DNA from: Antennarius striatus
Lineage: Eukaryota; Chordata; Actinopteri; Lophiiformes; Antennariidae
DNA: 64,000 nucleotides
Reading direction: 5' to 3'
Assembly (NCBI RefSeq): GCF_040054535.1
Contig: NC_090795.1
Location: forward strand, 979,501-1,043,500
Part shown: piece after piece, positions 1-60,231 of the stretch
How positions within the stretch are numbered: position 1 is the first letter of the stretch
How the letters are laid out: every line of letters starts with the position of its first letter
Translations under genes and position numbers: made by a program
The notes under the pieces: model-generated
The model's database searches: none
Told to the model about the DNA's origin: nothing
Seen by the model: the letters and a program-made list of their open reading frames with translations, nothing else

Positions 1-3000
1 GCCGTCTCTTCAGCCATGCAGACGTCTGGAGGAAGGAAGATATGTCACAAACCCAGCAAAAGAAAGTCGACCCGATGAAACCTGAAATTCACAGTAGGGA
101 CTCACCCCCAGCAGCTGCTGACTCCCGTTCCGTTTGTTGGTTTGGCTGGGGGCTGGCAACCGATTGGCTTCCAGGACTAAGACCAGCATTAGGCTCCACA
201 CGGCTTGTGGGAGCAGGACCCAGGCTGGGTGGAGACTGTTTGGTGTTGGCAACGGAATCTGGACCAGGACTCGCCTCACACCGGGTAGGGTCAACACTGG
301 GCATAGCAAGGCCAGGACTGTGACTAGCCTCTGATTTTTCAGGGCTGGTAGGGACAGGGGTAGGGCTAACCTGTGTGTCACCTGATTGCACGGGGCCACA
401 AGGACTAGCAACCGGGCTACTGTGTCCAGAAAGCACTTGAGGAAACAACGTCTGAGGAAGGCCAAACTGTGAGGGGGAAGAGGGTCGGGGACTAGCAGAC
501 TTTTCACTAGTGCAGATTGTGCTAGGCATCGCAGTATTATCCTGAGTGAGGCTAGAGTGGACAGGGCTGGCATGACTTGGACTACCATGTGTGCAAGTTG
601 GATCGACTGAGCTTTGATGTAAAGGGCTTCCAGGGCCAGTGCTTTGTTGGGTTTCAACAGCAGACTGGTTCACACTAGCCTGGTTGGGGGTAAAAGTAGC
701 CGAATCATCGGGCAGGGTACCGGAAGGTGTTGGGCTCATCTGGCTAGGACTAGCAAGACCAGAGTCAAGGTGAACCACATTGGGAAGAGCAGACTTCTGT
801 GGTTCAGAACTGGAAACCATGTCCATAATAAGACTTGAACGAGCTACATCAGGGCTCAACTTTGCCTCAGTAGAGCCAGAGCTGGTTCCAGTGTCAATCG
901 CTGGGCTAGCATGTGGGCTACGATATGTTTCACTAGCCTGAGCTGGACTTTGATACGGGCTACCACAAGGGGCTGCTGAGTTGGCCGGGCTGCTCTTTGT
1001 TGAGTTAGCCAATGATGAAGCTTCTTCAGGGATTGGGCCTGAGGGGGAAGGACTCACTTGATTAGCAGGACTAGACCTGGGTGGACTGTGGATGATGCCA
1101 AAGTCTGTTACGCAAGCCGCACATGAACTTGTCGGGCCACTATTGCTCAGACTGTGGCTAATAGGGCTACCAGCTGGGCTACTTGACCTACAGTGTGGAG
1201 GACTAACGTTCGATGGAGTGGGCAGTGGACTTCCCGGTATTGGAGAGGTCAGTGAAGGACTTGACTGGGGATGGACGGGACTTTGACTGCTCTCAGGTTG
1301 TGCAGGCTGTGCAGAACTAAAGACAACGGGACCAGTTCTTTCTGGAGATTCCAGACTCAAGTCGCCGTTCGCCTCGGTGTTGACTGGACTGGGATGGGAA
1401 GGACTTGAAGGATCTGGACTTTGTGGAGTGGAGGCTGGACAGCTTGGACTCCTCTCTGACTGAACAGGGTGGCAGCCAGCTACCTCCATCTCCTCTTCCT
1501 GACATGAGACAGGGTGGCTGGGGCTGGATAGTACCGCAGAGGGGCTGGCTGCCTGCTTTGAGGGTGTACTAGGTGGATCCAACGGGCCAATGGGTTGCTC
1601 AGAACGGCTAACGGGGGAAGGGATAGACTCTTTCAGCCCTGGGCTTGCACAGGCCAGATCACAGCTACCAGGGCTGGAAGGCATTTCAACGTTGTTTTTG
1701 GGGCTAGAGCTAGATGAGATATTCTGGATAACTATGAGACTGGCGTCATCTTCATTAGTCTCAGTGCACCGGGTTGGGCTGTCACAAGAAGCGCTTTTAT
1801 TAAGTTCGCTAGCTGGGGAAGGTATTCTCTCTGTTTCTTCAGCCGGAGAGCAAGCTAGGCGACTGTGTTCGAGCAAAGGGCTAACGTGAACAAGGCTTTC
1901 TGGTGTGGGAGCAGCAGAGACGTGAAGGGGGCCTGAATTATCCAGGATAAGGGCACTACCGTCAACAGGACTGACCTGGTTTTGGACTAGCCCATCTGTT
2001 CCGTGGCTATCAGGGGGTTTTGTTGACACACCTGTTGGGCTACAAGGGGCGGGGGTACTTTCCAGTGTTTGGCCATCAAGGATAAGAGGGCAATGTTCCA
2101 AGGACTTCAGCTCTATGGAACTGGTTTGGGGCCATTCCTTTGGGATACTTGATTGTGTAGCAAGGTGAGAAGACAGTAGGTTAACATTTGTGGAGTGGTG
2201 CCCAGTAGGACTCGAGGGTTGTGACAGACTACAAATGGTGGCTCTAGGTGGGGCTGGTGATGGGCTACATGGAGCTGACATTGGCTTTAGTGAGGTGTGT
2301 CTTCTTGCCGTCTTGGGAGGCTGACAGTCGACTGATGTCAGGTCCTGGTCCAGTGTAAAGATGTCCAGTGCAGCTTCACAGTGCAGCTGAGCAGGACTGC
2401 TTGATCCAGGACTTTCCTGGTCCAGTGTAGGCTCAGAATCCTGGGTGGGACTCTGTGGATATGACGTGCTGACTTGTACAGGACTATGAGGCGTAGGACT
2501 GTGCAGTTCTTGAGGGATATGCTGAGGTTGGATGATGTTAGCGCTGCATGGCTGATCAAGCTGGGTTTGCGGAAATCTTTGCTCAGGTTCTACATGTCCT
2601 GGCTGCAACTGGGTCAGACTTCTTTCTCCCTGTGTGGTACTTTTTGGAGAACATGCAAGGCTGCAATACAGACTGCCTTGATTTGGGTTCAGCTGAGACT
2701 CTTGTACTACGAAGCTATTCTGTGTGGAATGTTGGGTATGTGTCAAAGCCACATGGGTAGGACTTTGTCTCAGCTCGGGGAGACCCACTGTGCATGGTTT
2801 AGGACTTTCCTGAAGTTGTGATGGACTAGACTGAGATTGCGTGGAGCTTTGCACAAGCTCCGCAGGACTGAGGTGGGCAGGGACATTCTCCTGGTGTTCA
2901 GGGTTGACTGACGCACCACTGTCCTGGAGATCTGCAGGATCAGAGTGTGATGGTGCAGGACTTTGTGGAAGCTCTGCAGGTTCATGATGAGACTGGGAAG

Positions 3001-6000
3001 GACTTTCTATTAAGTTTGTTTTAAGCACTGTGTGCTCAAGATCAGATGGCAGTGGACTACACTGGACCTCTTTTGGATCAGATGGACTAGCTTGTAGATC
3101 TAGATCAGGCTGAGATGGCTGGGAAACAAGCTGGAGCTCTGAGGATTTAGGGGAAGATGGGCCAGGACTACGATGAAGCTCTTTGGATTTAGGATGTGAC
3201 GGTGCAGGGCTACGTTGGAGTTGTGTGGGTTCAGGGTGAGATGGTGCAGGACTAAATTCTGTGGATTCAAGGTGAGGTGGGGTAGAACTATGAAGCTCTG
3301 CTGGGGCAGGAGATGGGTTCTGAACCAGACAGAGCTCTGTGGGTTCTGGGCAAGGTGCTTTAGGACTGTGTTGGACTTCAATGGGTTCTGGGTGAGAAGG
3401 TGTAGGACTATGTTGAAGTTCTGGGTGTGATGGCGTAGAACTATGTTGCGGCCCAATGGGTTCAGGATGAGAAGGCGTAGGACTACGTTGGACCTCAATG
3501 GATTCTGGGTGAGTTGGCGTAGGACTACGTTGGCCCTCAATGGATTCCGGGTGAGGCGGGGTAGGACTACGTAGGGGCTCAGTGGTTTCTGGGTGAGATG
3601 CCGTAGGACTACGTTGGGGCTCAATGGATTCTGGGTGAGACGGCGTAGGACTACATTGGGGCTCAAAGGATTCTGGGTGAGACGGCGTAGGACTACGTTG
3701 GGGCTCAATAGTTTCTGGGTGAGACGGCGTAGGACTACGTTGGGGCTCAATGGATTCTGGGTGAGACGGTGTAGGACTACATTGGGGCTCAATGGATTCT
3801 GGGTGAGACGGCATAGGACTACGTTGGGGCTCAATAGACTCTGGGTGAAAGAGCGTAGGACTACGTTGGACCTCAATAGACTCTGGGTGAGAGGGCGTAG
3901 GACTACGTTGGACCTCAATAGACTCTGGGTGAGACGGCGTAGGACTACGTTGGACCTCAATAGACTCTGGGTGAGAGGGCGTAGGACTACGTTGGACCTC
4001 AATAGACTCTTGGTGAGACGGTGTAGGACTACATTGGACCTCAATAGATTCTGGGTGAGACGGCGTAGGACTACGTTGGGGCTCAATGGATTCTGGGTGA
4101 GACGGCGTAGGACAACGTTGGGGCTCAATGGATTCTGGGTGAGACAGCGTAGGACTACGTTGGGGCTCAATGGATTCTGGGTGAGACGGCGTAGGACTAC
4201 GTTGGGGCTCAATGGATTCTGGGTGAGACGGCGTAGGACTACGTTGGTGCTCAATGGATTCTGGGTGAGACGGCGGAGGACTACGTTGGGGCTCAATGGA
4301 TTCTGGGTGAGACGGCGTAGGACTACGTTGGGGCTCAATGGATTCTGGGTGAGACGGCGTAGGACTACGTTGGGGCTCAATGGATTCTGGGTGAGACGGC
4401 TTAGGACTACATTGGGGCTCATGGGATTCTGGGTGAGACGGCATAGGACTACGTTGGGGCTCAATAGATTCTGGGTGAGACGGCGTAGGACTACGTTGGG
4501 GCTCAATGGATTCTGGGTGAGACGGCGGAGGACTACATTGGGGCTCAATGGATTCTGGGTGAGACGGCGGAGGACTACGTTGGGGCTCAATGGATTCTGG
4601 GTGAGACGGCGGAGGACTACGTTGGGGCTCAATGGATTCTGGGTGAGACGGTGGAGGACTACGTTGGGGCTCTGTAGGGTCTGGGTGAGACGGAAGACTT
4701 TGCGATGGTGCAGGAGGGTCAGAGGTGGGACTTTGTGGTGAAAAGAGGGGCTGAACTGGACATGAGGGGGCGTGACTGATGGGCGGAGCCTCTGCCTGAG
4801 CTGGAATTGATGGCTCTGTAATGCTAACAGTTGCGGCCTGTGCAGGACTAGGTGGCAAGGCCACGATAGGACTTTGTGGTCTCGAAGTGTGTGGGGTCTG
4901 TCCCTCCTCCTGAGGCCTGCAGGTAGGGCAGACAAACTCTTCAGACATCGCCTTGCCCCCCCCAGCCTGGACAACGCACTCTGAGTGGACACCCCTGGGA
5001 TGACACACAAATAAACCAACATGAATGTCAACCAGGTCGCTTCCTGATGTTGACGAGGGGGCAGCGGCCTGTCCAGACACGATTACACCTACCGATAGCA
5101 GCGGACACAAGTCACATAGTCCTGTGGTGTGTAGAGGTCGGGGGCGTGGCCACAGAGAGGGCAGGGCAGGGTGGGGTCACATGACTCGCACAAAAATGGG
5201 TGATTAGCCCATTGGCCAGACGACCTCACGCCACAGCGCCGGCAGATTCTGCAGTTCTGGAGGACAGAGGTTTTAAAACACACACACTCTCTCTGACACA
5301 CACACACACACCCGTATGTCGATCTCACCTTGCAGCTCCAGCCGGTGTTCGGTGTGTGATCCAGCGGCGGCGACAGACAGTGTGTGTGGTACGCTTTGTC
5401 ACAACGGTCACACACCAGCAACGCCCTGTCGTCCCCTCGCAACCTAACACACACACACACACACTATTGACCAGGAATCTCAGGCTTCTTTCCTTAGCTG
5501 CTAAAGGCCAATGCTAGCACACGGACTGTGTGGATGACAGGAAGAACGGCCTCATGGGTAACAGACGTCTCACCTGCAGCTCTGACACACCCGACACTGC
5601 GGACACTGCCAGCCGGCCCTCAGCAGGGAGGAGGGGACCAGAGGGGGGTCCAGGCAGCTGCCATGGTAACAGTTACCACAGCTACAGCACATCAACATCA
5701 GGCTGACGTCGCCGCTGCCCGAACACGACACGCACCGCGAGGACGCTGGAACGAGGGGGGGGGTCAGTCAGTCGGGCGGTGCTTGCGTTGGATTGGCCCG
5801 CTTTCAAACAGGAAACAGGAAGTACCTGTTTGCGCGTGTCTTGTGCACAGTGTCTCTCTCCCGGTCCAGTTCTGGTGAGCTCCAGCGGCGGCGGCGCACG
5901 GGAAGTGGTAGCTCCGCCCGCAGCTCGTCTCCCGGCAACGAAGCGACGCCCCCAGCCGATGACAGAAAGCACAAACCTGTGCGGGAGGAGGGGCGGGGCT

Positions 6001-6160
6001 TAGCGAGGCAGTACGAGGCGCTGAGCGGACACTACGCTACGCTAACCCACCTGCATGCTTCCCGAGTCGATGGCTTTGTCCACATAGAGCAGCGATTGGC
6101 CCTCGCCCCGACACACCCCCTCCGACCACGCCGCGCACTGCAGGTGAGCACAGCACTGAC

Positions 6161-6198
<38 letters not shown>

Positions 6199-6619
6199 AT
6201 GTGGACCTGCACCAGGACGTAGAGGCGGAGCTAAGGAGAGGAACTTCCTGTACCTGTGGGGTCGAACAGTGATTGGACGTCGACGTCAGGCGGGAGGCCG
6301 ATGGGGCCGAGCTGCTCCACAAACGCCAAGGAAGACTCCTCCCCTGAAACATCAACAGGAAACAGTCATCAACACCTCCGATCAGAATCGGCGTGGGGGT
6401 GTGATTGATTATTGATCGGCATATAATCATCGGAAACGTTGATTTGAATTACAAATTAAAATGTAAAACGCAGACGTTTACTTTGAAAAGGGCAAGTTTT
6501 ACAAGTGGGCGGACCCGGGCCTTTAAGGACCGCCCACAGGGGGGCGTTCTGTTTAGAACCACATGATCATTTAGTGTGAGAGGAGAAACTCACCATCCTG
6601 TTGGGGACTGCTGCACCTA

Positions 6620-6675
<56 letters not shown>

Positions 6676-8632
6676 TAACATCACCACGTATGCGTCTTTT
6701 ATTTTGACGGCGGTGCAGAAGTGGGGATGGCTCACGTGGGCGGGGCCTGGTCGCCGTGGTAACAGTGGTCGTGGCAGTCGTTGTCCCGGTCGGCGGAGGC
6801 GCGGCGGTTCAGGACGTGGAGGGGGATGTAGCCGGGCGTCGGGCCGAACACAACCAGGCGGCCCTGGCCCATGGGGGGGTCGTCGCCGCGGTAACAGAAG
6901 GCACACTGCTTCAGCCTGAAGAGACACCAATGGACGGGGGGGTGAGAGACCGGCGGGGGCGTTCTGGTGTGTGATGACGTGAGCCGGGGACACGCCTACC
7001 GTTTCTCCACATGTCCCAGGCTGGGGGTGGGAGACCCCCCCGAGTCCTCCGACAGGCAGCGGGGCGACAACGAGTCCTCGTCCTCCAGGCGGGGGGGCGC
7101 CGGAGGGCTGCAGTAGGGGCTCCCCTCCGCCGGGCTGGACTTGCCCTCGTCCGTCTCCATGGGAACTGTGCTGGGATGGCAGAGGTCCTCTGCCGGAGGG
7201 GGGCCGCGACCCAGGCTGGGGGACGCCGGACCGACTCTGGGTACGTCCGCAGGACTGAGAACCGGTCCTGGGCTGGAGGCTGGGGGCGGGGCCGCAGGAG
7301 GGGGGCAGGGTCTGTCCACTTCCACCGCGGTAGGAGAGGGGTCAGGGGGGGGCACCTGCACTGGGCTCTCAGGGGGAGGGGCATTTGGGTCAGGGTCCAG
7401 CACGGGTTCTAGACCAGGACTGTCCCGGCCAGGTTCAGGATCAGGTTTAGGTTCAGGATCAGGTTTAGGTGCAGGATCGGGTTTAGATTCAGGATCGGGT
7501 TTAGATTCAGGATCGGGTTTAGCTTCAGGATCGGGTTCCAGAACCAGATCAGGGTCCGGGACCGACTCTGGTTCAGGTTCTGGATTGGGATCAGATTGAG
7601 GTTCGGGATCAGGATCTAGATCAGGATCGCATTTGGGATCAGACTCATGATTGGGACCAGGTTCTAGATCAGGAGTGGGTTTGGGATCAGGCTCATGATT
7701 GGGATCAGGTTCTGGATCGGGATCAGGTTCTGGATCGGGATCAGGTTCTGGATCGGGATCAGGTTCTGGATTGGGATCAGGCTCTGGATCGGGTTCGGGA
7801 TCAGGTTGAGGGGCTGCACTGGGTTTCCTCCTGGTGTTGGACCGCCGACGTCCTGTTGTCTTCTCTTTCACCTCTGGAGACACACACACACACACACACA
7901 CAGAACGTTCAGGGTCCGACACCAGCAGGACTTCTGGATGGACCCGCCCACGTGTGGGCGTCGACCCACTGAAAAGGGGCGGATCCAGGAGTTAGGTTAA
8001 ATTTGATACGGTGTGACTGGTACTAAAGGGCTTGGATTGTAATTACATGTAATAACATGGCACTGGTGACACCCCCACACCAGACCATCAGTCGCCATGG
8101 CGATCTAGCTGGGGGAAGGGGGGGCAACCCCCCCCTATCACTGAAGAACAAACAACCCGCAAACACATTCGTCCCAACAGACAGCTGTTATCTCACACAC
8201 ACACACCTGTCTTCTCGGGTGTTTTCTCCGTGGCGTCCGTGCTCTCTTCATCCTCTACCTGGGCTCTGCCTCGACTCCGCCCCCTGCAGAGAGACAGACA
8301 CACACACACACACACAGTTCAGATTGTTGATCGGTATCTGATTGGTTTTCACTAGCAGAGTGAGAAACTGAGGTTTGATCAGAAACAAACATCCCTGGGG
8401 GGCACGGGGGGTGTCTCACTTACTTCCTGGATTTGGGAGGTGGTGGCGGCGGCGGTGGGGGAGGGGCGGAGCGGCCGCCGCTGCCATCCTTCCGGGGGCG
8501 CCCGCGGGGGCGGCGCTCGGACGAGAGCTTAGCAGCAATTTCTTTGGCGAGCTGGGCAGAGCGTCCGGCCCGAGTGACGGGGGCCGCCGGGCCGCGGTCC
8601 CGAGGTTCCTGGGACTGAGCCTCGGACGGCAT
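1..8632 (-). CDS. kmt2c: Histone H3K4 methyltransferase KMT2C (MLL3), N-terminal part, partial
   Basis: Subunit of the nuclear COMPASS-like complex that monomethylates H3K4 at enhancers; only the N-terminal reader part lies here. Coding exons, 5' to 3' on the minus strand, are 8632-8424, 8283-8207, 7873-7000, 6915-6736, 6616-6594, 6343-6254, 6160-6051, 5976-5826, 5745-5574, 5443-5329, 5256-5093 and 4994-106; every junction is GT-AG and in phase. The start MPSEAQS leads into RRPRGRPRKDG, nearly identical to human KMT2C. Next come an acidic exon like KMT2C's second exon, a Pro/Asp/Glu exon, an extended PHD (CAFCYRGD to YHFPCAAAAG), then PHD fingers (GNCYHGSCLD, CDKAYHTHCL, CGVRSSGQW) and a last zinc-binding unit. 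The 4.9-kb exon is a Ser/Pro-rich region with a long tandem repeat. KMT2D is the alternative, but CGVRSSGQW, RPRGRPRKDG and the xrcc2/actr3b neighbourhood favour KMT2C. A further exon at 25-1 is possible but weak. SET domain and the rest lie off the left edge. Confidence 0.93.
3362..4692 (-). repeat. kmt2c: 42-bp coding minisatellite in kmt2c large exon (about 30 units)
   Basis: About 30 head-to-tail units of 42 bp each encode 14 residues, consensus SHPESIEPQRSPTP. Variants include QCSPTP, IEVQRSP and SPPP, and the units become ragged towards 3362. Because 42 is a multiple of three, copy-number change keeps the frame, and an opposite-strand frame is open too. Each unit offers Ser-Pro sites for proline-directed kinases. 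Adjacent units are almost identical at DNA level, which points to recent expansion or homogenisation. Confidence 0.95.
7430..7812 (-). repeat. kmt2c: Hexanucleotide coding repeat (Asp-Pro-Glu-Pro) in kmt2c exon 3
   Basis: On the minus strand this stretch of exon 3 reads as repeated Asp-Pro-Glu-Pro, Asp-Pro-Asn-Pro and Lys-Pro-Asp-Pro. On the plus strand it is degenerate GGATCAGGTTCT-type DNA. It sits between the basic N-terminus and the extended PHD finger, where human KMT2C has an unrelated low-complexity linker. It looks like an in-frame microsatellite that became coding. Confidence 0.85.
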
Positions 8633-10620
8633 TCTGGGTAAAAACACAGCAGAGGGAGGGGCTTCAGATGAGACAGGAAGTGGGGTCAAAAAAAGCATTA
8701 AACAAGTCAATGTGGATGCGAGTGATCGATCGATCGCAACTCGACTATTTATCCAGAGACACGTTTAATCACGTTGGTTGTATGTCGCGTTTGTCGTCCC
8801 ATGATCCTCTCTGTTCCACCGGACAAATGAGGCGAAGGCTTGATTATTGATCGGATCATCAGTTTAGAATCAAACGAGAACCGTGTGATTAAAGATGCTT
8901 CCCGACTGCATCAGGGTCTCCGGTTCTTCTAGAGACGCTTCAACCTAATCCAGATCCAGATCCTGGTTCCTCCACTTCTAGAACCTTCCTGCTCTTCCTC
9001 CTTCAGGTGCTCTAGAGGGGTCCCGTCATGTGACGCCTCCAGAACTTCTTCTGGAACCAGATCTCGGTGGACCCTGAGGTCTGCTGGGGATCTTTGTTCT
9101 TCCTGATCCATGATGGATCCGTCTGAACCGCTGCAAGTTTCTAGTGGACCCAGAACATCACTGAACCCCCCCCCCACCACGCTTCTAGTAGGGGGGCTTC
9201 CAGACACACGCCAGATCCCAAGCCCCCAGAGGCTCCCGTTCGGTTTCATGGCTCCACAGAACCGCATCCAGAACCTGGAGGGTCTGATCAGGTGGTTCTT
9301 CTGGATCAGAACTGATGGAGATCTGAGAGCCTGAACTAGATCCGATCTGATGATGACGATGATGATGAAGAGTCGTCTGGACGTCTGTGCTGAACGCAGT
9401 AAACAAACCCTGTTGTTTCCACACTGAACCTCCCCATGACCGATGTGTCTTTTCAACTAAACAGCTGATTAACTTCCGGGTTAGTTTTACCCCCTCAGGT
9501 GGGGCAGAATGATTCTCTGCGGGACCAGAGCACCTCCAGAACAAACAAGTCGGGCTCGAGCTGGAGTTCATGCTAACATTAGCCGAGGCTAGCTAAGCTA
9601 AGGCAGAATAAAGTCGTCCTTCCGGCGATGCTAAACACGTTAGCTTGAAACGGACGGACTTGTAACGCCACCGGAAACACTTTAACCACCAAACAACAAA
9701 CACAACATGTGTGTGAAGTCGTTTTTACATCCACACCACACGGACAAAGCTAACAGCTAGCTGCTAATAGCTACCTGCTTGCCATTAGCGGCTATCTGTT
9801 AGCGGCTAGCAGTTAGCTTCCCCCCGGACCGCCCAGTCGCAGCACTTCTGTTAGCATTAGCGTTAGCTAGCGGGTTAGCTGTTAGCGAATTCTCCGCCCC
9901 GCGTTCGACGTTAACGACCGGACTCAAGTTGGCGGAAGGAAAGGCCGCGAAAGTGCGGCTGAAAGCCCCGCGGGTGTCGGGGGGAGGCTGGGAGAGGATC
10001 CTTACTGATTCGAAGCGAGTCTCTTTTTCCTCTCCAGCTTTCCACACAACTTAAACCGATCCGTTCGAATCCAACAGCGAACTTCTCCGGAGGATCACAT
10101 CCGTTTCACAAGTCAGGCATGATGAGGGTCTCCGTGGAAACATTCCCGTGGATCGTGGAAGGAAAAATACGCGGTTTTGCGCTGGAAATAAGCGAAAAAT
10201 TAAAGTTGAAGCGGTCGCTCCATCATGGAGGCCATGTTTAGGAGCGACCGAAGCACCGCCTGTCAGCGACAACAGGAGAAGTAGGTCCCGGGGAAACATT
10301 CAACTCCCACACCGGGGCTTCAAGTTCCAAAAGGTTCGCGTTCACAAATGATGACCTCGACAGGTGAGGGTTTAACACCTGCACGCGTGTCTGTGCCCGC
10401 GTGCGTCACGGCGGGTTTATTTGTTTGTGTTGTGTAAAAAGTGTGTCTGACCTCGCGGAGGGATCTGGGGGAGGACCGATCTGGTGAAGCGGTCTCTGTC
10501 ATCAGGTCTGAAGTCCCGGACTGGAGTCGCGCGCCACGGAGCGGAGCTGCCGCCGCACGTGCGCCGTCCGACGCGGATCCGCGCGCTGTTCCCGTCACGC
10601 GCCGTGTAAACATGACGTCA
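8633..10620 (-). promoter_or_regulatory. kmt2c: kmt2c 5' region with candidate non-coding first exon and promoter
   Basis: A TTTACCCAG acceptor lies one base before the kmt2c ATG, so the coding start is probably in the second exon. A matching candidate donor (CA|GTAAGG, exon end at 10006) lies in a CpG-rich stretch at about 9880-10620, which I take as the likely promoter and non-coding first exon. The rest (8700-9560) is intron-like with no gene I can support, and 9560-9860 is dense in GCTAAC/TTAGC words. The transcription start is inferred, not seen. Confidence 0.4.
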
Positions 10621-10881
10621 TCCTGCTTTTAAAAGTCAATACGCTTGTTTTTTTTAAAACTGTGACGTCATCTCGGTGAATCAGATACACACGCGCGCGC
10701 GTGGTCTCCTAGGAGACGCGACCGCCGCAGCTTCTCCACGGAGAGAAGGTCAAGCTGGATCCGCGGCGTCTCATTGGTTCCCCCGCAGCCCGAAGTCACA
10801 CGAGCCGTCCAGGAGGAATCCACTCCGACACCGGATTACAGCCCGTTCACACACACACCTGACGTCACGGGGGTGACGTCA
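10613..10881. promoter_or_regulatory. Cluster of four TGACGTCA (CRE) palindromes
   Basis: Exact TGACGTCA occurs at 10613, 10663, 10860 and 10874, just upstream of the CpG-rich kmt2c 5' region. The full CRE palindrome binds CREB/ATF-family factors. Four copies in 270 bp are far more than chance would give, though the word is also common elsewhere in this window, so regulatory function is inference. Confidence 0.45.
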
Positions 10882-11034
10882 GAGGGGAACGAAACCCGTT
10901 AGCTTAAAGAGGGTCGAACCCAAGTAAACCAGAGCCTCTGTGGTGACGTAGTGTTTGACTCAGGGTACTTAGGTTACAGAGTAACTAAAGTATATTACTG
11001 CAGTTACTCTTTAATTAGTCCACTAGTAGCATCA

Positions 11035-11170
11035 GGTTTTCAACTAACTAGGTTTTTAACTAAATAACTAACTAGGTTTTTAACTAAGTAACTAAATAAC
11101 TAACTAGGTTTTTAACTAAATAACTAAATAACTAACTAGGTTTTTAACTAAATAACTAAGTAGGTTTTAA
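11035..11170. repeat. Short degenerate tandem repeat between kmt2c and xrcc2
   Basis: Repeated units of the type AACTAACTAGGTTTTT with extra AACTAAAT insertions. The surrounding gap 10882-11300 has no open frame worth calling and holds the boundary between the kmt2c 5' region and the xrcc2 3' end. Confidence 0.75.
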
Positions 11171-11303
11171 GGTAACTGGGTTTGAATCCGTCTCAGGTTG
11201 GGTTCTACTACTGACCCATCCTTCTGATTTCAGGCGGAGCCTCTCCACCAATCAGATCCATCGATCCGGCGGCGACACGAGCGCTCCTGGATCAAAACAA
11301 ACC

Positions 11304-11309
11304 TTTATT
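11304..11309 (-). terminator. xrcc2: Poly(A) signal AATAAA of xrcc2
   Basis: TTTATT on the plus strand reads AATAAA on the minus strand, about 90 bp beyond the xrcc2 stop codon, a normal spacing for a short 3'UTR. Confidence 0.6.
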
Positions 11310-11395
11310 GACAAACACATTCAAACGTCAAAAATACGCATAAAAAACTCTTTTTTTTTCTTTTCCATAAAGTCCTGATCGCGTCTGCAGACGCC

Positions 11396-12318
11396 TCAGA
11401 GGAACTCCACGCCGGCGTCCGTCACCCTGAAGCCGCTCCTCCTGGGGGAGCCGCTCCTCCTGGGGGAGCTGCAGTGGACGCTGAAGGTCTGTCTCCTCCT
11501 CGGCCCCCCGCCTCCTGGCGCCGCGGCCGCCGTGTTGTCGGCAGCTTCCTGTCTGGAGCAGAGCAGCCGGTGGCTCACCAGCCGTTGCCAGGGGCGACAA
11601 AGGTAGGGCCGGTCAAACTCCGAGGAGGAGGAGGAGGAGGAGGAGGAGGAGGAGGAGGACGGCCCCCTCCTGATCGCATGGCAGGTCGCAAAGACTGTGA
11701 TCCTGTAATCCCTGAAACAAGAACCGCAGCTGCTTCAGCCAGATTGAAGGTTCCTGATTGGTCACCTAGAACCCCCCCGTGACCCCCCCCGCAGGAGGAA
11801 CCGCTCCAAACTAATACCTGAGGAGGCGTCCCAGGAGCTCGGCGCACCTGCTGAGCTTCTCTTCCTGCTTGGCGACGCTGGCCCCGCCCTCGCTGCGATC
11901 CAGCCAATAGAAAGCGGAGATGCTGTCGATGAGGAGGAGGGCCAGGGTGGGCCGGGTGGAGAAGGAGGTCTCCAGGAAGTGGAGGGTGAGGAGGAGCTGG
12001 GAGGAGGAGGAGCAGTGGACGACCAGGAGGCGGGACAGACACGAACGCAACGCCGCCTCGTCCGAGTCAGGGGGGGGCGAGGTGGTGGAGTGAGCTGGGG
12101 GGGGGGCAGATGGGTATGTAGATGGTACTTACAGATTGAGGTCATGTGACTCCGGGTCACGCCTACCTGCGTTCAGCCGGCTGTCCAGGATGCTGACCAG
12201 TCGTAACATGTCCAGACTGTAGTCGGTGTCCATGAACGCAACGTCCACCTGCAGCCCCCCCGCCGCCACCGGCAGCACACAGCGACACAGCAGGTGGTAG
12301 AGCAGCTCCGTCTTCCCT

Positions 12319-12381
<63 letters not shown>

Positions 12382-12666
12382 GTGACGATCCAGCGATGGC
12401 TCCCAGGTGGAGCCGACTCCCGCTGGACGAGCTCACCTGTTCCCTCGGCTCCGTACAGCTCCACCACCTCACCTGGAGCGGAACGAATCAGCCAATCAGA
12501 TCGATCAATGGCGGTTGATAACAGGTTGATCAATAAGGTGTGAGGTCACGTGATGGCGGCGGACAGGAAGTGGATGTTAGTCACCGTGTTCGGGTCCTCC
12601 ATCCTCAGGGAACAGACGGGGTTCAACGTCCTTCAGGCAGCGACGGGCCTCCAGACGGGCGAACAG

Positions 12667-12752
<86 letters not shown>

Positions 12753-13129
12753 AATGAACTACATTAAACTTTTGGGATGCTAACGTTAGCCCATTAAAGC
12801 TAACTCATCTGAACTACACCTGATCTCTGGATGTGATGAAGATGATGCTGCTGCTGATGAAGATATCCCCGGGGGTCAATTATTTAGAGAATGACGTCAT
12901 GCATAAAAAAAAACACTTGAGTATCTGCTGTATTGATCATTGAAAATAACTGATCGTGAGTATCTACAGGGTTTTTCCACAGCTCCAGAGCTAGCATGTG
13001 CCATTAGCGGTAATGCAAACACGGTGACGTCACGACAAGGATCGACCGTCAACACACGTCAGTAATCTGATTACTTCCGGGGTGTAAAGTAACGTGTAAC
13101 TGTCTGACCTGAGCGCCAGTCTCAGTCAT
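11396..13129 (-). CDS. xrcc2: DNA repair protein XRCC2 (RAD51 paralog)
   Basis: RAD51 paralog of the BCDX2 complex, acting in homologous recombination in the nucleus. Six coding exons (13129-13109, 12666-12585, 12472-12437, 12316-12167, 12094-11818, 11711-11396) total 882 nt, giving 293 aa against 280 in human. The short first exon MTETGAQ matches the human first exon, which also ends just before [22 protein letters not shown], the Walker A motif GAEGTGKT (about residues 42-49), [59 protein letters not shown] and the C-terminal GVEFL all match human XRCC2 in order. An intron splits the Walker A motif just before its Lys. A run of about a dozen serines coded by TCC repeats replaces the human SSSSEEPSH segment. 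A basic Arg/Ser insert precedes the C-terminus. Identity is secure. Confidence 0.96.
12320..12379. repeat. (CA)n microsatellite in xrcc2 intron
   Basis: An almost pure CA tract of about 60 bp. Read on the minus strand it is (TG)n placed directly before the CAG acceptor of xrcc2 exon 4, in the position of a polypyrimidine tract. Confidence 0.95.
12669..12750. repeat. (CA)n microsatellite in xrcc2 intron 1
   Basis: About 80 bp of pure CA; on the minus strand it runs as (TG)n right into the GCAG acceptor of xrcc2 exon 2. Confidence 0.95.
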
Positions 13130-14104
13130 TTCGGCTCGAGCTCATCTTCAAACCCTCGAGACGAAGCCGCCACAGTTTGATCTCACTTCCGGGTTCTCCT
13201 GTTTTACCGTAAAGCGGGTTCGTGTCGCGAAAGACCGTCAGGGCGATGCTTGAAGGTCGAGTCTGAAGCAGCTGGATTGGATAATACCGTTTCATCCGAC
13301 AGGGCCCCCTCACCTCTGATTGGCTGTTGGGTTTTAGATCCCGCCTTTCAGGGTGTTACCGTAATATCCACTACGCGCGACGCCACATTCATTAAAAAAA
13401 CGCTAGGCGATTAATAACAAACGATTAATAATAAAACGATTTATTAAAATACATTTTAATAAATATTTTTATTACATAATTTAAATATTTATTTTTAAAT
13501 GTAATTTATTTAATATAGTAAATTTAACTAAATTAATTTAAAAAAAAGTATTTTATTGAAAACAAAAAGATATTCTCAGCTTCATGTAAAAAAAGTATGT
13601 AAATGAACCCTGCAGCATTGATGACGTCAGAAGCACAGTCCTGTTTGGTCACAATTTATTTCTGTTGAACAAAAAACGCAAAAGATTTTTCTTTCTGTCA
13701 CTAAATCACTTTGTCTCTAATCTTCCAAAACACATTGTGTAAAAACCAGCAGAGCAAAACCTCCTGAACAAAACAACCATCAGGGACTAACAGGCTTCTG
13801 TAACAGATTTTATGTCAGAAATATGATATAAAACATACAAATTCTTAGAAAATACTTCAGTGTTTGGGGTATAAGTGATAAATGACACCTCCATGCGTCC
13901 TATAAAAAAAAAAAAATAGTGCAAAACGCTGATCTGTTCCGTGAATCAACCTCTTACGGACAATCATGAACAACTACATCTCCCATAATGCTTTGAGGGA
14001 TGTAAATGACGAATTCAGTGACGTAAGCCTAACACTGCTGTTTGGAATAAAACCCCAGAGGAACCTGAACGTAACCTTTGACCCGCCCATAAATAATCGT
14101 CCAA
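13130..14104. other. Intergenic: xrcc2 promoter side and 3'UTR of the next gene
   Basis: 13130-13390 should hold the xrcc2 promoter and 5'UTR (the first coding exon begins at 13129). 13390-13600 is strongly AT-rich with no coding signal. 13600-14104 is the likely 3'UTR of the minus-strand repeat-protein gene, with AATAAA on the minus strand at 13655-13660. I see no further gene. Confidence 0.5.
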
Positions 14105-17100
14105 TCACAGGCGATGCAGTCGGACGCAGCAGGGGGAGACGACGCCCACCTGACTGCTCTTCCCGACTGGGGTCATGTGACCCATATGCCTCGATGCGTG
14201 GTCACACCCGCTGATCGTTGATGCCTTGCCCCCAGCTTTGCTCTTCAGTGGTTTTCTGCCCCGTTTAGAGACCCCACCTCTGACCTGATTGGTCGTTGAA
14301 GGACCATGTGACAGCTCTGACTCTAGGAGGTATCTGATTGGTGGGCCAACCCTCCTCCTCCTTGGCCTCTGAGGCTCAGGCGCCTCCTCTGTCACCTGTG
14401 TCTCCTTCCCCTGGCGTCTACCACTGCCCTCCTCCTCCTCCTCCTTAGCGTCTTTGTCTCCTCCTCCCTGCTCCTCTTCCTCCCTCCACCTCCTCCTCTT
14501 CCTCCCCCTCCGTCCCCCCACCTCCTGCCGGCCCCTCCTCCTCACGCGGGTCCGGTAGCTCCACCACAGCTGCAGGTTTCTATTCGCCGCTCTTCTACGT
14601 GCCGACCAATCAGGCACTGGGGTGGGCGGGGCTGGGACGAGCATTTTCTCCTCCTCCTGATGCTTCCTCCTCTGCTTCCCCTCGTCTTCCTTCGTTTTGC
14701 CATGATTGGCCGCCGACAGGTCATGTGACCACTCCTCAGACTGGAGCAGGTATCTGATTGGTGGACAGACCGCCCTCCTCCTCCTCAGCTGCCCCACCTT
14801 CTCGTTCTCCCCCGTTGGTTCGGGTTCGAGTCGGCGCTGGGACTCTTCATCAACAACGTGATTGGTTGGCTCCTCCCCCCTCTTCCTCTTCATCGCCACT
14901 GCTTCCTCTTGTTCTGAGGAGAACAGAGAATAAATCAAGAATCTAAAGTCGACTTTTATCACCAGAAGTTTTGACATGTGTGTTTTTGTCGCTGCAGTCA
15001 GGATCAATGACCTGATCAATAATCTATCAGGTTATTGGTTTTGTTTCAACACTCTTCTGAACTTACTGTCGTCTCGATCCAAACCCTCCTCCTCTTCCCG
15101 ATGCTCCCGCCCCTTTGCGCCTCTTGCTCCGCTCTCATTGGCTGGTGACAGGCTGACTGCCCGCCCCTCAGACTCCGTCGAGGATCCGATTGGTCGACAG
15201 ATTGTTGCCCGTCCTCCCGCCTTCAGCTCCTCTGTTTTCATTGGCTGGACAAGCTCATCCTCCTCATCCTCCTCTTCGTACTTCCTCCTCTGCCTCAGCA
15301 GCATTTTCTTGGCTCCTCCCACTTCACTCTGATTGGCCAGATTAAACTCATACCAGCGTTCCTCAGACTGAATCAGGTACCTGATTGGAGGACCGACCGC
15401 CTTCCTCCTCGGCCTCAGCTTTCTCTCCGGTTGGACACCTTCCTCCTCCTCTTCCTCCTCTTTCCGGAGCGTTATTTTTACTCCTCCTGCTTTGCTGTGA
15501 TTGGCCGTTGACGGGTCATGTGACTGCTCCTCAGATGGTGGATCACCTGTGCTCCTTCCTGGCTTCTTCGTCTCCTCTTCCACGTCCTCCTTGTCCTCCT
15601 CCTCTGTCCACAGCCTCTCTGCGTTCTGTCCTCTCTCCTCCCCGTCATCGGCCAGTGTTAGGGGGCGTGTCCAGTCCTCCACTGGCTCTCTGATTGGTGG
15701 AACAGCCGTGCTCCTCCTCGGCCTCCCTGCCCGCGTCGTCAGGCCTCCTTCATCACCACCCGTCTCCTCCTCATCCTCCCTCCACAGCCGCCTTTTTGCC
15801 TTTTCTGCTCTTGTCCTTCTGTGATTGGCCAGTGAGAGGCCATGTGACCGCCCCTCCGACTCCGTCAGGTTTTTAATTGGTGGATCATCTCTGCTCCTTC
15901 CTTCTCCTGCCTGCTCCATCCCCCTTGATCGTTCCTTCTCTTCCTCCTGCTCCTCATCCTCCCTCCACAGCCTCCTTTTTGCCTTGTCTCCTCTTGCCGC
16001 TCTGTGATTGGCCAGTGAGAGGTCATGTGACCGCACCTGAGACTCCTTCAAGTGTCTGATTGGTGGACCGACTGCATTCCTCCTTGGATTTCCTGTGTTC
16101 TCCTCTGCTTCCGCTCCACCCCCCTCCTCTTCCTCCTCCTCTTCCTCCATCAGCCTCTGCGACATCATCTCACCTTTGTCTTCTCTTGCCTTGCTGTGAT
16201 TGGCTGCTGATAGGTGTGTGTTTGAGTCACATGACCTAACAGGTAACCCAACTCCACCCTCAGTGTTTTGCTCCTCCTCCTCCTCCTCCTTTTCATCTTC
16301 CTCACGTTCCATCCTCGGCCGACTTTCCGTGCTTTCTCCTCTTGGTTTGCTGTGATTGGCCGGCGACAGGCCATGTGACCGGAGCAGCTGAGGAGCTTGT
16401 GGCCTACACAGAGGCATTGTGGGTAACTGTAGGTGCGTGGGGGGGCAGCAAAGCAGGTAGAGGGGCAGGAGGTGGGGCCCATCTGGGTGGTGTGTGCAGC
16501 AGCCTCCTGGTGGGTCCTCTGGTCTGACGGCGACGCACGGCCACGCCCTACCACACACACCTGACACACACACACACACACACACACACTTCACAATAAA
16601 GAAAACGGTAAAGGGTACCCGGACGCAGAGCCGCCAGAAACGATGATTTTGATCGTCGACCAATCGGATCAAACTGAAACTTAATGTCATTTGTTTTTAG
16701 CATCACATGAGCTAACTAGCCAGTTAGCTGCTAATATTAGCAGCTGATTAGCCAGTGCAGGGGGGGGGGGTCAAACTCATTTTCACTGAGGGTCACATCA
16801 GCATAACGCCTGTCCCCAAAGGGCCACATGTAACTAAATGTAATGTAACTAAATGTAATGTAACTAAATGTAATGTAACTAAATGTAATGTAACTAAATG
16901 TAATGTAACTAAATGTAATGTAACTAAATGTAATGTAACTAAATGTAACTACTCCTTGATGTTAAATAACTGAATTTATTATTTATTCAGGTCACAAACA
17001 TTACAGTTAGACAGAAGAACATGTTTGTTTGTGTGTTCCCACAGACGAGAGACACCGGTACCAGACAGATGAAGGATGGCAGCCGTGACACAGCTCTGAC

Positions 17101-18492
17101 TGTGAGTCGGTGGAACAACACCTGATTTCTCAACTGGGGGACCTGGAGATTAATATCGATCCGGATCAGATGGAGACATGTCACCCACTACCATCTGGAG
17201 GTAGGAGACCACCTGCGGTGCTGATAAAATTCCTAAATCACAAGTACAAAATTGGTCTTCTGAAACAAGGCCCTGAACTGACAGGAAAAGACGCCTACAT
17301 CAACGAGAACCTCACCAAACAGAATGCTGATATCGCTAAAAAGCTCGTCAGCTGAAGAACAACGGGCTGATCCACAACACCTGGACCAACACCTGGACCA
17401 ACACCTGGATGATCTTCATCAGAACAAAGGGGCTTTATCCAGAGCAGATGAAAACAATGATGATCAAAAATGTGGACGAATTGGAGAAATTCGACCGATA
17501 AGGTCTGACCAAAAACAAAAACTGTGTAACTTGGATTTCTGCTTGAAGGGATAACGATAAGTTTGAGACTTTAAATCGCACGTATAACTGTTGAAGTGTG
17601 TGTAACGAACGCGTTCATTCTAGGGTAAACACCGTCTGGAAGAGGTGACTATGATCAGTATATTCCTGTGGAGAACACTGGAAGGTCAACTTCTTGTTTT
17701 GACCATCTATGATGTCAACAAGCCTTGTTGTTCCTAAAAAGAATGTAAACATGGTTATTCTCTAGGTTATATCGGAGACAAAGGCTAATATCTGGAAGTG
17801 GATCAGAGTACCAACGTCTGTCAGAATTCAATGTCTGAGCGTGTTGACATGTTGTAACCAGATGTTTGTTGGTTCCTACTGGCTTCTACCCATCAGCCCT
17901 TGTTGTTGTTGTTGTTGTTGTTGATGAAGGAGTGACGTCTGTTATGGTAACATGTCCGGAAAAAAATTAACTACATAGGTGTTATTAGTAATAAATCCAG
18001 GAGCTCGTGCGTCGCGGTTTTGATTGTGGACCAATCACAGCGGGTGGGCGTGGCCTCACTGGGCGTCTCACCTGGACAGGGACCACAGCTGAGCTGCTGA
18101 GTCAGCAGGTCCACCTGGACAGCAGCATCTCTCCTGGGGGGCGAGTCGCTCTGACAGCCCACGGTCCTCCTCTGCTTCCCACGCCGCCCCCCGGGGCTGC
18201 CCCCCTCCTGGAGGTTCTCCTGCGGGGTCAGGGAGGAGAAGAAAATCACTTCAGGTCTGGAAACAGGAAGTTGAATAAGACTAACTTCCGGTGTGGATGT
18301 CTGCACGCTGCTAGACGTCGGAGACTTGATAAAGTTGTTTCTCCACGCAGACTAATAAAGTTTTATTCAAACTCAGTTAGCTTCTGTGTAGCTAGCCGGG
18401 CTAGCTGTCTTGACAGACAATAACGGGAACCCGGAGCTCCTCCGGTGTTTTCAGTCACAACGACACGGGTAACGTTCACTCACCGGAAACAT
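14105..18492 (-). CDS. Unrecognised four-exon gene: charged protein with about ten degenerate repeats
   Basis: I do not recognise this gene. Exons 18492-18484, 18219-18072, 16560-15067 and 14913-14105 are joined by GT-AG introns in matching phase and total 2460 nt, giving 819 aa. The N-terminus (MFPENLQEGG, then RRTVGCQSDSPPRRDAAVQV) and a short Cys/Pro-rich stretch are non-repetitive. From about residue 90 some ten units of roughly 45-130 residues follow. Each opens with a basic Arg cluster and (A)VGPPIRYL, then SEERSHDLSxANHSKARGDK, then a long Glu/Asp run. There is no signal peptide or membrane segment. The C-terminal unit has an AT-hook-like KRGRKP. The basic/acidic alternation suggests a nuclear protein, but that is inference. 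It is flanked by xrcc2 and histone H2A. Support comes from long uninterrupted frames, repeat conservation across an intron, and phase-consistent splicing; expression is unproven. Confidence 0.65.
16757..16835. mobile_element. Short hAT-like repeat fragment (GGGCCACATG family)
   Basis: The stretch starts CAGGGGG(G)n, continues TCAAACTCATTTTCACTGAG and ends GGGCCACATG. This resembles the ends of non-autonomous hAT elements that open CAGGGGT...CAAACTCAT and carry GGGCCACA. Similar words recur near 38800, 54040 and 57720. The fragment lies in the second intron of the repeat-protein gene. The family call is by eye only. Confidence 0.4.
16831..16950. repeat. 15-bp tandem repeat TAACTAAATGTAATG, about 8 copies
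   Basis: Eight near-perfect head-to-tail copies, directly after the hAT-like fragment. A related TAACATTTAGTTACATTTAG stretch follows the similar fragment at 54040-54130, so the repeat seed may belong to the element. Confidence 0.9.
17010..17560 (+). mobile_element. Degenerate retroelement ORF1-like fragment
   Basis: A plus-strand open stretch (17110-17355) encodes a peptide with RPPAVLIKFLNHKYKIGLL and KDAYINENLTKQNADIAKK. This pattern resembles the nucleic-acid-binding C-terminal domain of retrotransposon ORF1-type (Baculo_FP-like) proteins found in fish and invertebrates. Further related sequence follows to about 17510. The copy is old and broken (at least one break), has no visible reverse transcriptase, and sits antisense in an intron of the repeat-protein gene. 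Family assignment is uncertain. 17560-17960 holds nothing I can name apart from a (TTG)n run near 17900. Confidence 0.45.
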
Positions 18493-19885: not shown

Positions 19886-20035
19886 TCACGAAGGTCCTCC
19901 AACGGGCCAGTACCAGGTTGCTCCGTATGGGTCATACCCGGGCCGGTACCGGTGGAACTTCATCGCGCAGCCGGGGACTTGTATGCGCACCTTTCCTCCG
20001 GTGGACTTCGGGCCGGTCTGCTTGGTTCCGGCCAT
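19886..20035 (-). pseudogene. Histone H3 remnant (5' part)
   Basis: The minus strand opens MAGTKQTGPKSTGGK, then keeps HRYRPG, clearly from H3 (MARTKQTARKSTGGK...HRYRPG). R2 and A7/R8 of the tail are changed, the segment between residues about 16 and 39 is replaced or shortened, and the frame ends after 49 codons with no histone fold. It lies convergent to H2A and is likely a decayed member of a former histone cluster. It could also encode a small H3-tail-like peptide, but nothing shows selection for that. Confidence 0.75.

Positions 20036-53576: not shown

Positions 53577-60231
<6,655 letters not shown>

Follow-up and report, generated by a model that had tools for sequence, protein, structure and literature searches.

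The question raised by this locus is whether a long, repetitive open frame in the genome of Antennarius striatus encodes a protein and, if so, what kind of protein it would be. The locus lies in a 64,000-nt stretch of DNA (NC_090795.1, positions 979,501-1,043,500, assembly GCF_040054535.1), hereafter the window, and all coordinates below are window coordinates. The gene is on the minus strand (18492-14105). It comprises four exons (9, 148, 1494, and 809 nt) separated by GT-AG introns (264, 1511, and 153 nt) with phases 0, 1, and 1. The joined coding sequence (CDS) is 2460 nt long, corresponding to 819 codons plus TGA, and bears out the original prediction of four exons with agreeing phases and splice sites and an 819-codon frame. 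The same prediction had placed repeats on both sides of the last intron; units 1-8 are indeed in exon 3, and a half unit and units 9 and 10 are in exon 4. In our best reading of the sequence, the gene is real and weakly constrained and would have grown by in-frame duplication. The more specific proposal, that such duplication produced a largely disordered charge-block repeat protein serving as a multivalent nuclear scaffold, is drawn partly from analogy and seems to us evenly balanced between right and wrong. The gene and its repeat protein look real but ordinary in kind.

Repeat units and the coding frame

Ten units are aligned, and an eleventh, half unit (PTNHV, codon 567), which was not among the ten originally predicted, is added. 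The unit coordinates (Table 1) are codon ranges converted by hand. Scanned with a DNA profile of which they are themselves the source, the window yields the ten units and, below E 0.4, nothing else. Tandem Repeats Finder detects part of the array, with a 183-bp period and 2.2 copies. The ten predicted units stand, but their VGPPIRYL...SHDLSxANHSK core varies more than originally described: PPI is intact in six of the ten units, and ANH likewise in six of ten.

The alternative to a gene is a non-coding minisatellite whose strand is poor in stops and rich in purines and whose splice sites are due to chance. The strand is purine-rich, and the openness of exon 4 over 269 codons is reached by 1 of 1000 shuffles. 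The exon 3 frame, however, has no stop in 497 codons, compared with 13 and 27 stops in the other sense frames, and 1000 dinucleotide shuffles of that exon never reach 497 open codons (longest, 355). The eleven anchors, defined as the A-N position of the ten units and the half unit, are all in one frame, at successive distances of 52, 64, 61, 59, 49, 56, 65, 41, 52, and 139 codons; ten of them carry CCAAT, and that of unit 5 reads GCCGAT. In addition, the CDS has 18 CCAAT words on its sense strand, and they occupy two codon phases, leaving the third empty, with ten in the ANH class and eight in the CCA-AT class, one of the latter outside the unit core. In a neutral simulation with 10% of sites changed, a mean of 8.5 stops arises in 713 codons, and only 1 of 300 runs is stop-free. 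The actual units diverge by 0.556 at synonymous sites (pS), compared with 0.1 changes per site in the simulation.

The ratio of nonsynonymous to synonymous differences (pN/pS) among the ten units is 0.71 in the true frame (bootstrap 0.59-0.81) and 1.00 and 1.03 in the other sense frames. The alignment behind these values is derived from the proteins, and the calculation was therefore repeated with a nucleotide alignment, giving 0.75 in the true frame versus 1.01 and 1.01 in the other sense frames. The non-coding minisatellite is thus rejected by the frame, spacing, and pN/pS tests, and we regard it as highly improbable. The pairwise ratio of nonsynonymous to synonymous rates (dN/dS) ranges from 0.24 to 1.06 in 21 of the 45 pairs (pN below 0.40; one not computable, its silent sites being saturated). 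From these comparisons, selection looks to keep the frame open and to restrain the amino acids mildly.

A predicted charge-block protein

The predicted product has 819 residues and a mass of 92.5 kDa; 37% of its residues are charged, and its net charge is near 0. Its mean hydropathy is under the Uversky disorder boundary. AlphaFold2 models exon 4 alone with a mean predicted local distance difference test (pLDDT) of 58.5, a predicted template modelling score (pTM) of 0.29, and two helices; one unit with ten alignment rows gives a mean pLDDT of 58.5 and a pTM of 0.17. As modelled, the product probably has no globular fold and is largely disordered.

The charges are segregated along the chain. 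The segregation over residues 104-819 is 0.129, compared with a mean of 0.069 and a maximum of 0.097 in 2000 shuffles, none of which reaches the observed value. The heads of the units are more positive than the tails in ten of ten cases, and a positive head is combined with a negative tail in six of the ten. Segregated blocks beyond chance, the mark of charge-block tandem repeats, are present; that class groups proteins by mode of action and does not imply homology. Basic clusters are located at residues 559, 594, 675, and 735.

We propose that the units multiplied via in-frame duplication, each with a more basic, core-bearing head leading into a more acidic tail. Within the nucleus, the protein would form a multivalent scaffold that works electrostatically, its basic blocks holding nucleic acid or histones and its acidic runs holding the protein itself or basic partners. 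This mode of action would be akin to that of the Ki-67 charge-block repeats, outside the Ki-67 family, and length and charge pattern would weigh more than exact sequence.

Known systems resemble the predicted protein in part. Ki-67 (MKI67) is defined, as we take it, by an FHA domain and Ki-67 repeat homology, and the gene falls outside it, with no Pfam match, such as FHA, at E 10 in the exon 3 and exon 4 frames or the N-terminal 112 residues. Nopp140 and treacle are disordered nucleolar proteins with alternating basic and acidic stretches, the acidic stretches being Ser-rich CK2 targets. The repeat protein differs from them, with only 11 S/T-x-x-D/E sites in 819 residues and acid that is mostly Glu. 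Both proteins are named in the accessible part of PMC9106583. As described there, the disordered repeats of Ki-67 become positive-then-negative diblocks and drive condensation, and the exact charge positions matter little (PMC9106583). What the two have in common is tandem repeats, probably disordered in the repeat protein, in which a negative block comes after a positive one; the difference is that the negative blocks of Ki-67 arise by mitotic phosphorylation, whereas the repeat gene encodes Glu instead (PMC9106583, same part). If orthologues exist, the gene would be a further charge-block candidate, one in which the acidic blocks are encoded and not made by phosphorylation. Hemogen, according to the accessible part of PMC6124579, is a vertebrate nuclear factor whose acidic repeats vary in number and which has diverged between fish and mammals; its repeats of 21-25 residues are accompanied by a coiled coil, and its gene is on zebrafish chromosome 1 and at human 9q22. 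The two share repeats that include acidic runs (PMC6124579, same part). However, the units of the repeat gene are 41-139 codons apart and its neighbours are xrcc2 and the Arp3 gene, which sets it outside Hemogen.

Several observations weigh against the charge-block reading. Exon 4 alone gives the weaker shuffle result reported above. The antisense frames have pN/pS values of 0.80 to 0.96, the 0.80 being given without a bootstrap. Units 3 and 4, the closest pair, have a dN/dS of 1.06. The fixed silent sites in the SHD and AN boxes, described below, are unexplained by a protein-only account. Unit 10 has no acidic tail. Residues 102-149 of exon 4 are modelled as a long helix with block means of 80-96, and because this helix is confident, not all of the protein need be disordered. 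Finally, a nuclear location is suggested by a single feature, the basic clusters, and we infer the scaffold function by analogy. Weighing the frame, pN/pS, and stop tests together with the dN/dS of the closest pair, we judge the frame to be apparently genuine and under selection, and its residues to be only mildly so.

The most serious rival is that selection acts on little more than the frame. The gene would then be coding yet nearly functionless, an orphan, young or decaying, in which selection works only against truncation or aggregation, with charges that are partly a by-product of GGA-type microsatellites (GAG for Glu, AGG for Arg). The charged blocks do derive partly from purine tracts: 52 of 122 Glu codons and 22 of 105 Arg codons are in pure-purine tracts of at least 12 nt, and AGG accounts for 53 of the 105 Arg codons. 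The closest pair of units agrees with this account, as do an overall pN/pS of only 0.71 and an own-genome search that yields no second gene among the best candidates scored. However, the frame has long been kept despite deep silent divergence, and, of the three sense frames, only the true one has a pN/pS clearly below 1. We consider near absence of function doubtful, and prefer the charge-block reading.

Promoter-type words in the repeat core

The PPIR of the core is encoded as CCACCAATCAGA, most units reading CCA CCA ATC AGA or near, and SHDLSxANHS encodes CACATG and GCCAATCAC (TCA CAT GAC CTG TCx xxx GCC AAT CAC AGC, with changes). The layout of a unit is a purine (GGA-type) tract, a CCAAT box (PPIR), a CACATG E-box with a second CCAAT box (SHDLSxANHS), and a purine tract. 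The core, the most conserved part of the repeat, overlaps these CCAAT and E-box words, a feature absent from the original description; because its conservation is partly silent as well, it may be more than a protein motif. The layout suggests a route to a long charged, probably disordered protein, in which purine tracts are joined in frame to promoter-type words.

The boldest rival to the charge-block reading is a dual code, in which exonic putative sites for NF-Y (CCAAT) and E-box factors, nearly all in one orientation, would form an enhancer or promoter array for this gene, xrcc2, or H2A. The word CCAATCA occurs 15 times in 14105-16560, compared with 0.34 in shuffles (maximum 3 among 200), and 14 of the 15 copies are in one orientation. 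In addition, same-residue pairs share their codon in 102 of 102 cases at S21, H22, A27, and N28 (the SHD and AN boxes), compared with 336 of 560 in 37 non-motif columns. In the first CCAAT box, by contrast, the shared codons (P 29/45, I 15/21, total 44/66) are not unusual. A permutation of the six motif columns against random columns gives p 0.003, with columns picked after the motif was seen. Because the test is post hoc and complete fixation is also seen in several non-motif columns (e.g. 28/28 in one Glu column), the silent-site signal is only suggestive. Duplication alone would copy the sites, no selection being needed. The spacing between the two words speaks against a dual code as well, since the N11 arrangement is not clearly special genome-wide (see below), and the same words are enriched across the window. 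On balance, a dual code appears improbable.

A fuller version would have two codes at once: an array of about 18 CCAAT boxes with CACATG, partly kept at silent sites, would regulate the histone and xrcc2 genes, and one duplication process would have lengthened both array and protein. Judged from the sequence, this version appears decidedly improbable. The ten internal copies nevertheless provide a case where protein constraint and DNA-word constraint could be separated. A cluster of factor-binding motifs is present in a coding exon, as sequence words. Exonic enhancers (eExons), in the accessible part of PMC4745165, likewise have regulatory motifs within coding exons; the motif copies of the repeat gene differ in being explicable by duplication and in being known here as sequence words.

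The enrichment across the window is seen outside the gene (1-14000 and 18601-64000), where the counts, compared with shuffle expectation, are 44 versus 9.1 for CCAATCA, 21 versus 1.2 for TGACGTCA, 27 versus 2.6 for ACTTCCTG, and 12 versus 0.3 for GTCACATGAC; CAATTCA is missing (0 versus 11.2 expected). In 20 background loci (195 kb), CCAATCA occurs 32 times versus 42.4 expected, i.e. without enrichment, and the raw counts of TGACGTCA and ACTTCCTG are 5 and 22. At 56810-57140, TCACATGA recurs every 66 bp, six times, forming a second tandem array that carries the E-box word. This array may contribute part of the GTCACATGAC count.

Genome-wide, TCACATG-N11-GCCAATCA is matched 23 times, 5 times at the gene and 18 times elsewhere; its reversed control is matched nowhere. 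The N12 version has 11 matches and a control of 0. Because 18 matches elsewhere compare with 11 for N12, the N11 spacing is not clearly special, and a composite element with fixed N11 spacing is rejected. The 18, of which 12 were inspected, include three cyclase-like exons and a relative on contig C6.

Relatives, gene model, and neighbours

The own-genome searches (548 Mb in 42 contigs) use as queries a fragment around unit 10, the protein of exon 3, and 201 bp surrounding unit 3, and, with the best candidates alone scored, reveal no second gene. Two loci, L027 and L029, are rejected as paralogues: they are weak matches of Glu/Pro-rich low complexity, and L027 contains stops. The relative on contig C6 (L033:1488-1606) is a lone unit that is 82% identical to unit 6 across 61 bp and 70% identical to unit 3 across 117 bp. 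It scores 58.3 bits, compared with a maximum of 46.8 in 150 shuffles retaining the core. It is surrounded by AT-rich DNA, has a stop shortly past the core, and is non-coding. Used as a genome query, it recovers itself and this gene alone (E 3.5e-8). Because the C6 unit matches only itself and this gene, and the best match of the unit profile in the 20 background loci is E 1.9, there is no sign of a dispersed repeat family. We take the decayed C6 unit to be either a stray copy or a remnant.

The peptide WSHDVTLANH is common to the repeat core and three cyclase-like exons (L030:1485-1542, L035:1485-1540, and L038:1488-1542), in the same reading frame. These exons (GVDINMRVGVHSGN...VWSHDVTLANHM) are presumably from adenylyl cyclase genes. 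The repeat could have originated as a captured scrap of a cyclase exon that was later amplified. The three exons match the core in frame, at 24.8-26.1 bits in nhmmer, and outside the pattern 46-57 of 131 bases are like unit 3, compared with at most 43 in eight other loci inspected, L033 aside. However, the likeness ends after about ten residues, the PDB profile search ranks cyclase at E 2.1, and the loci were preselected by the motif pattern. Their scores of 41-44 bits do not reach 46.8, the highest value in the shuffled-flank null that was made for L033. With no Pfam class III cyclase match and a likeness of about ten residues, the gene is not placed among adenylyl cyclases, and capture from one is barely credible.

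The original prediction that the gene matches no named family holds within Pfam, NCBIfam, and the PDB sequences. At a threshold of E 10, Pfam matches neither the exon 3 and exon 4 frames nor the N-terminal 112 residues nor a 59-residue stretch, and NCBIfam likewise leaves exons 3 and 4 unmatched. Two Pfam matches fall in the open frame that surrounds exon 2 (17971-18351), at E 0.091 and 0.15; they are far under the curated cut-offs and taken as chance. Among PDB sequences, no match is accepted, the best being E 1.6 for the unit profile, through which alone exon 3 was compared, E 0.35 for exon 4, and E 0.81 for the 59-residue stretch. A CENP-C-like nucleosome motif, brought to mind by a P-x-x-Y that follows arginines, was considered and set aside. 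In the open PubMed Central text, no paper contains VGPPIRYL, and, judged from listings, nothing is recognisable as this gene. As originally proposed, the protein may be lineage-specific, the sequence searches having covered its own genome, Pfam, NCBIfam, and the PDB.

Exons 1 and 2 are without repeats, and their support comes entirely from splice-site quality and phase. Among the minus-strand GTs of the window, the donors of exons 1, 2, and 3 rank in the top 0.35%, 0.23%, and 2.26%, respectively, by a hand-entered consensus matrix.

Table 1. Window coordinates of the gene, its repeat units, and its 3' signal
Feature	Position	Strand	Details
Exon 1, coding part (MFP)	18484..18492	-	ATG at 18492, donor GTGAGT; in-frame TGA 21 nt upstream (by reading)
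Intron 1	18220..18483	-	264 nt
Exon 2	18072..18219	-	148 nt; non-repeat N-terminus; GC 0.69
Intron 2	16561..18071	-	1511 nt
Exon 3	15067..16560	-	1494 nt; units 1-8; UG-rich acceptor
Unit 1	16271..16396	-	SHGLSPANHSK + acidic run
Unit 2	16115..16258	-	
Unit 3	15920..16090	-	VGPPIRHL...SHDLSLANHR
Unit 4	15746..15904	-	nearest partner, unit 3
Unit 5	15569..15724	-	degenerate core, GCCGAT replacing GCCAAT
Unit 6	15425..15565	-	6 codons fewer ahead of SHD
Unit 7	15239..15415	-	
Unit 8	15068..15223	-	
Intron 3	14914..15066	-	153 nt; GC 0.37; GTAAGT...CTCCTCAG; separates unit 8 from half unit
Exon 4	14105..14913	-	809 nt including stop TGA; half unit, units 9-10, basic tail
Half unit	14840..14881	-	EEPTNHVVDEE, ACCAATCAC
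Unit 9	14627..14788	-	VCPPIRYLLQSEEWSHDLSAANHGK
Unit 10	14225..14368	-	VGPPIRYLLESELSHGPSTTNQ; without acidic tail
First AATAAA 3' of stop	13655..13660	-	444 nt downstream

The window lies roughly 1 Mb into contig C20. The charged-repeat coding gene had been placed between xrcc2 and a histone gene, and the neighbours support this: an XRCC2 gene lies downstream on the same strand (E 3.8e-13 to XRCC2 chains of PDB), and a histone H2A gene is located upstream on the plus strand, about 3 kb from the repeat gene, with the Arp3 gene beyond. Rfam gives no match over 12-22 kb of the window. Beside H2A, a minus-strand stretch at 19889-20034 (MAGTKQTGPKSTGGK...FHRYRPG) resembles by eye a decayed histone H3; Pfam and PDB searches give no match to it. 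Within intron 2, a plus-strand stretch at 17041-17500 looks by eye like a relic of the first open frame of a long interspersed nuclear element, with no match in Pfam. The same intron carries, at 16828-16948, a 15-bp minisatellite (ATGTAACTAAATGTA) in 8.1 perfect copies.

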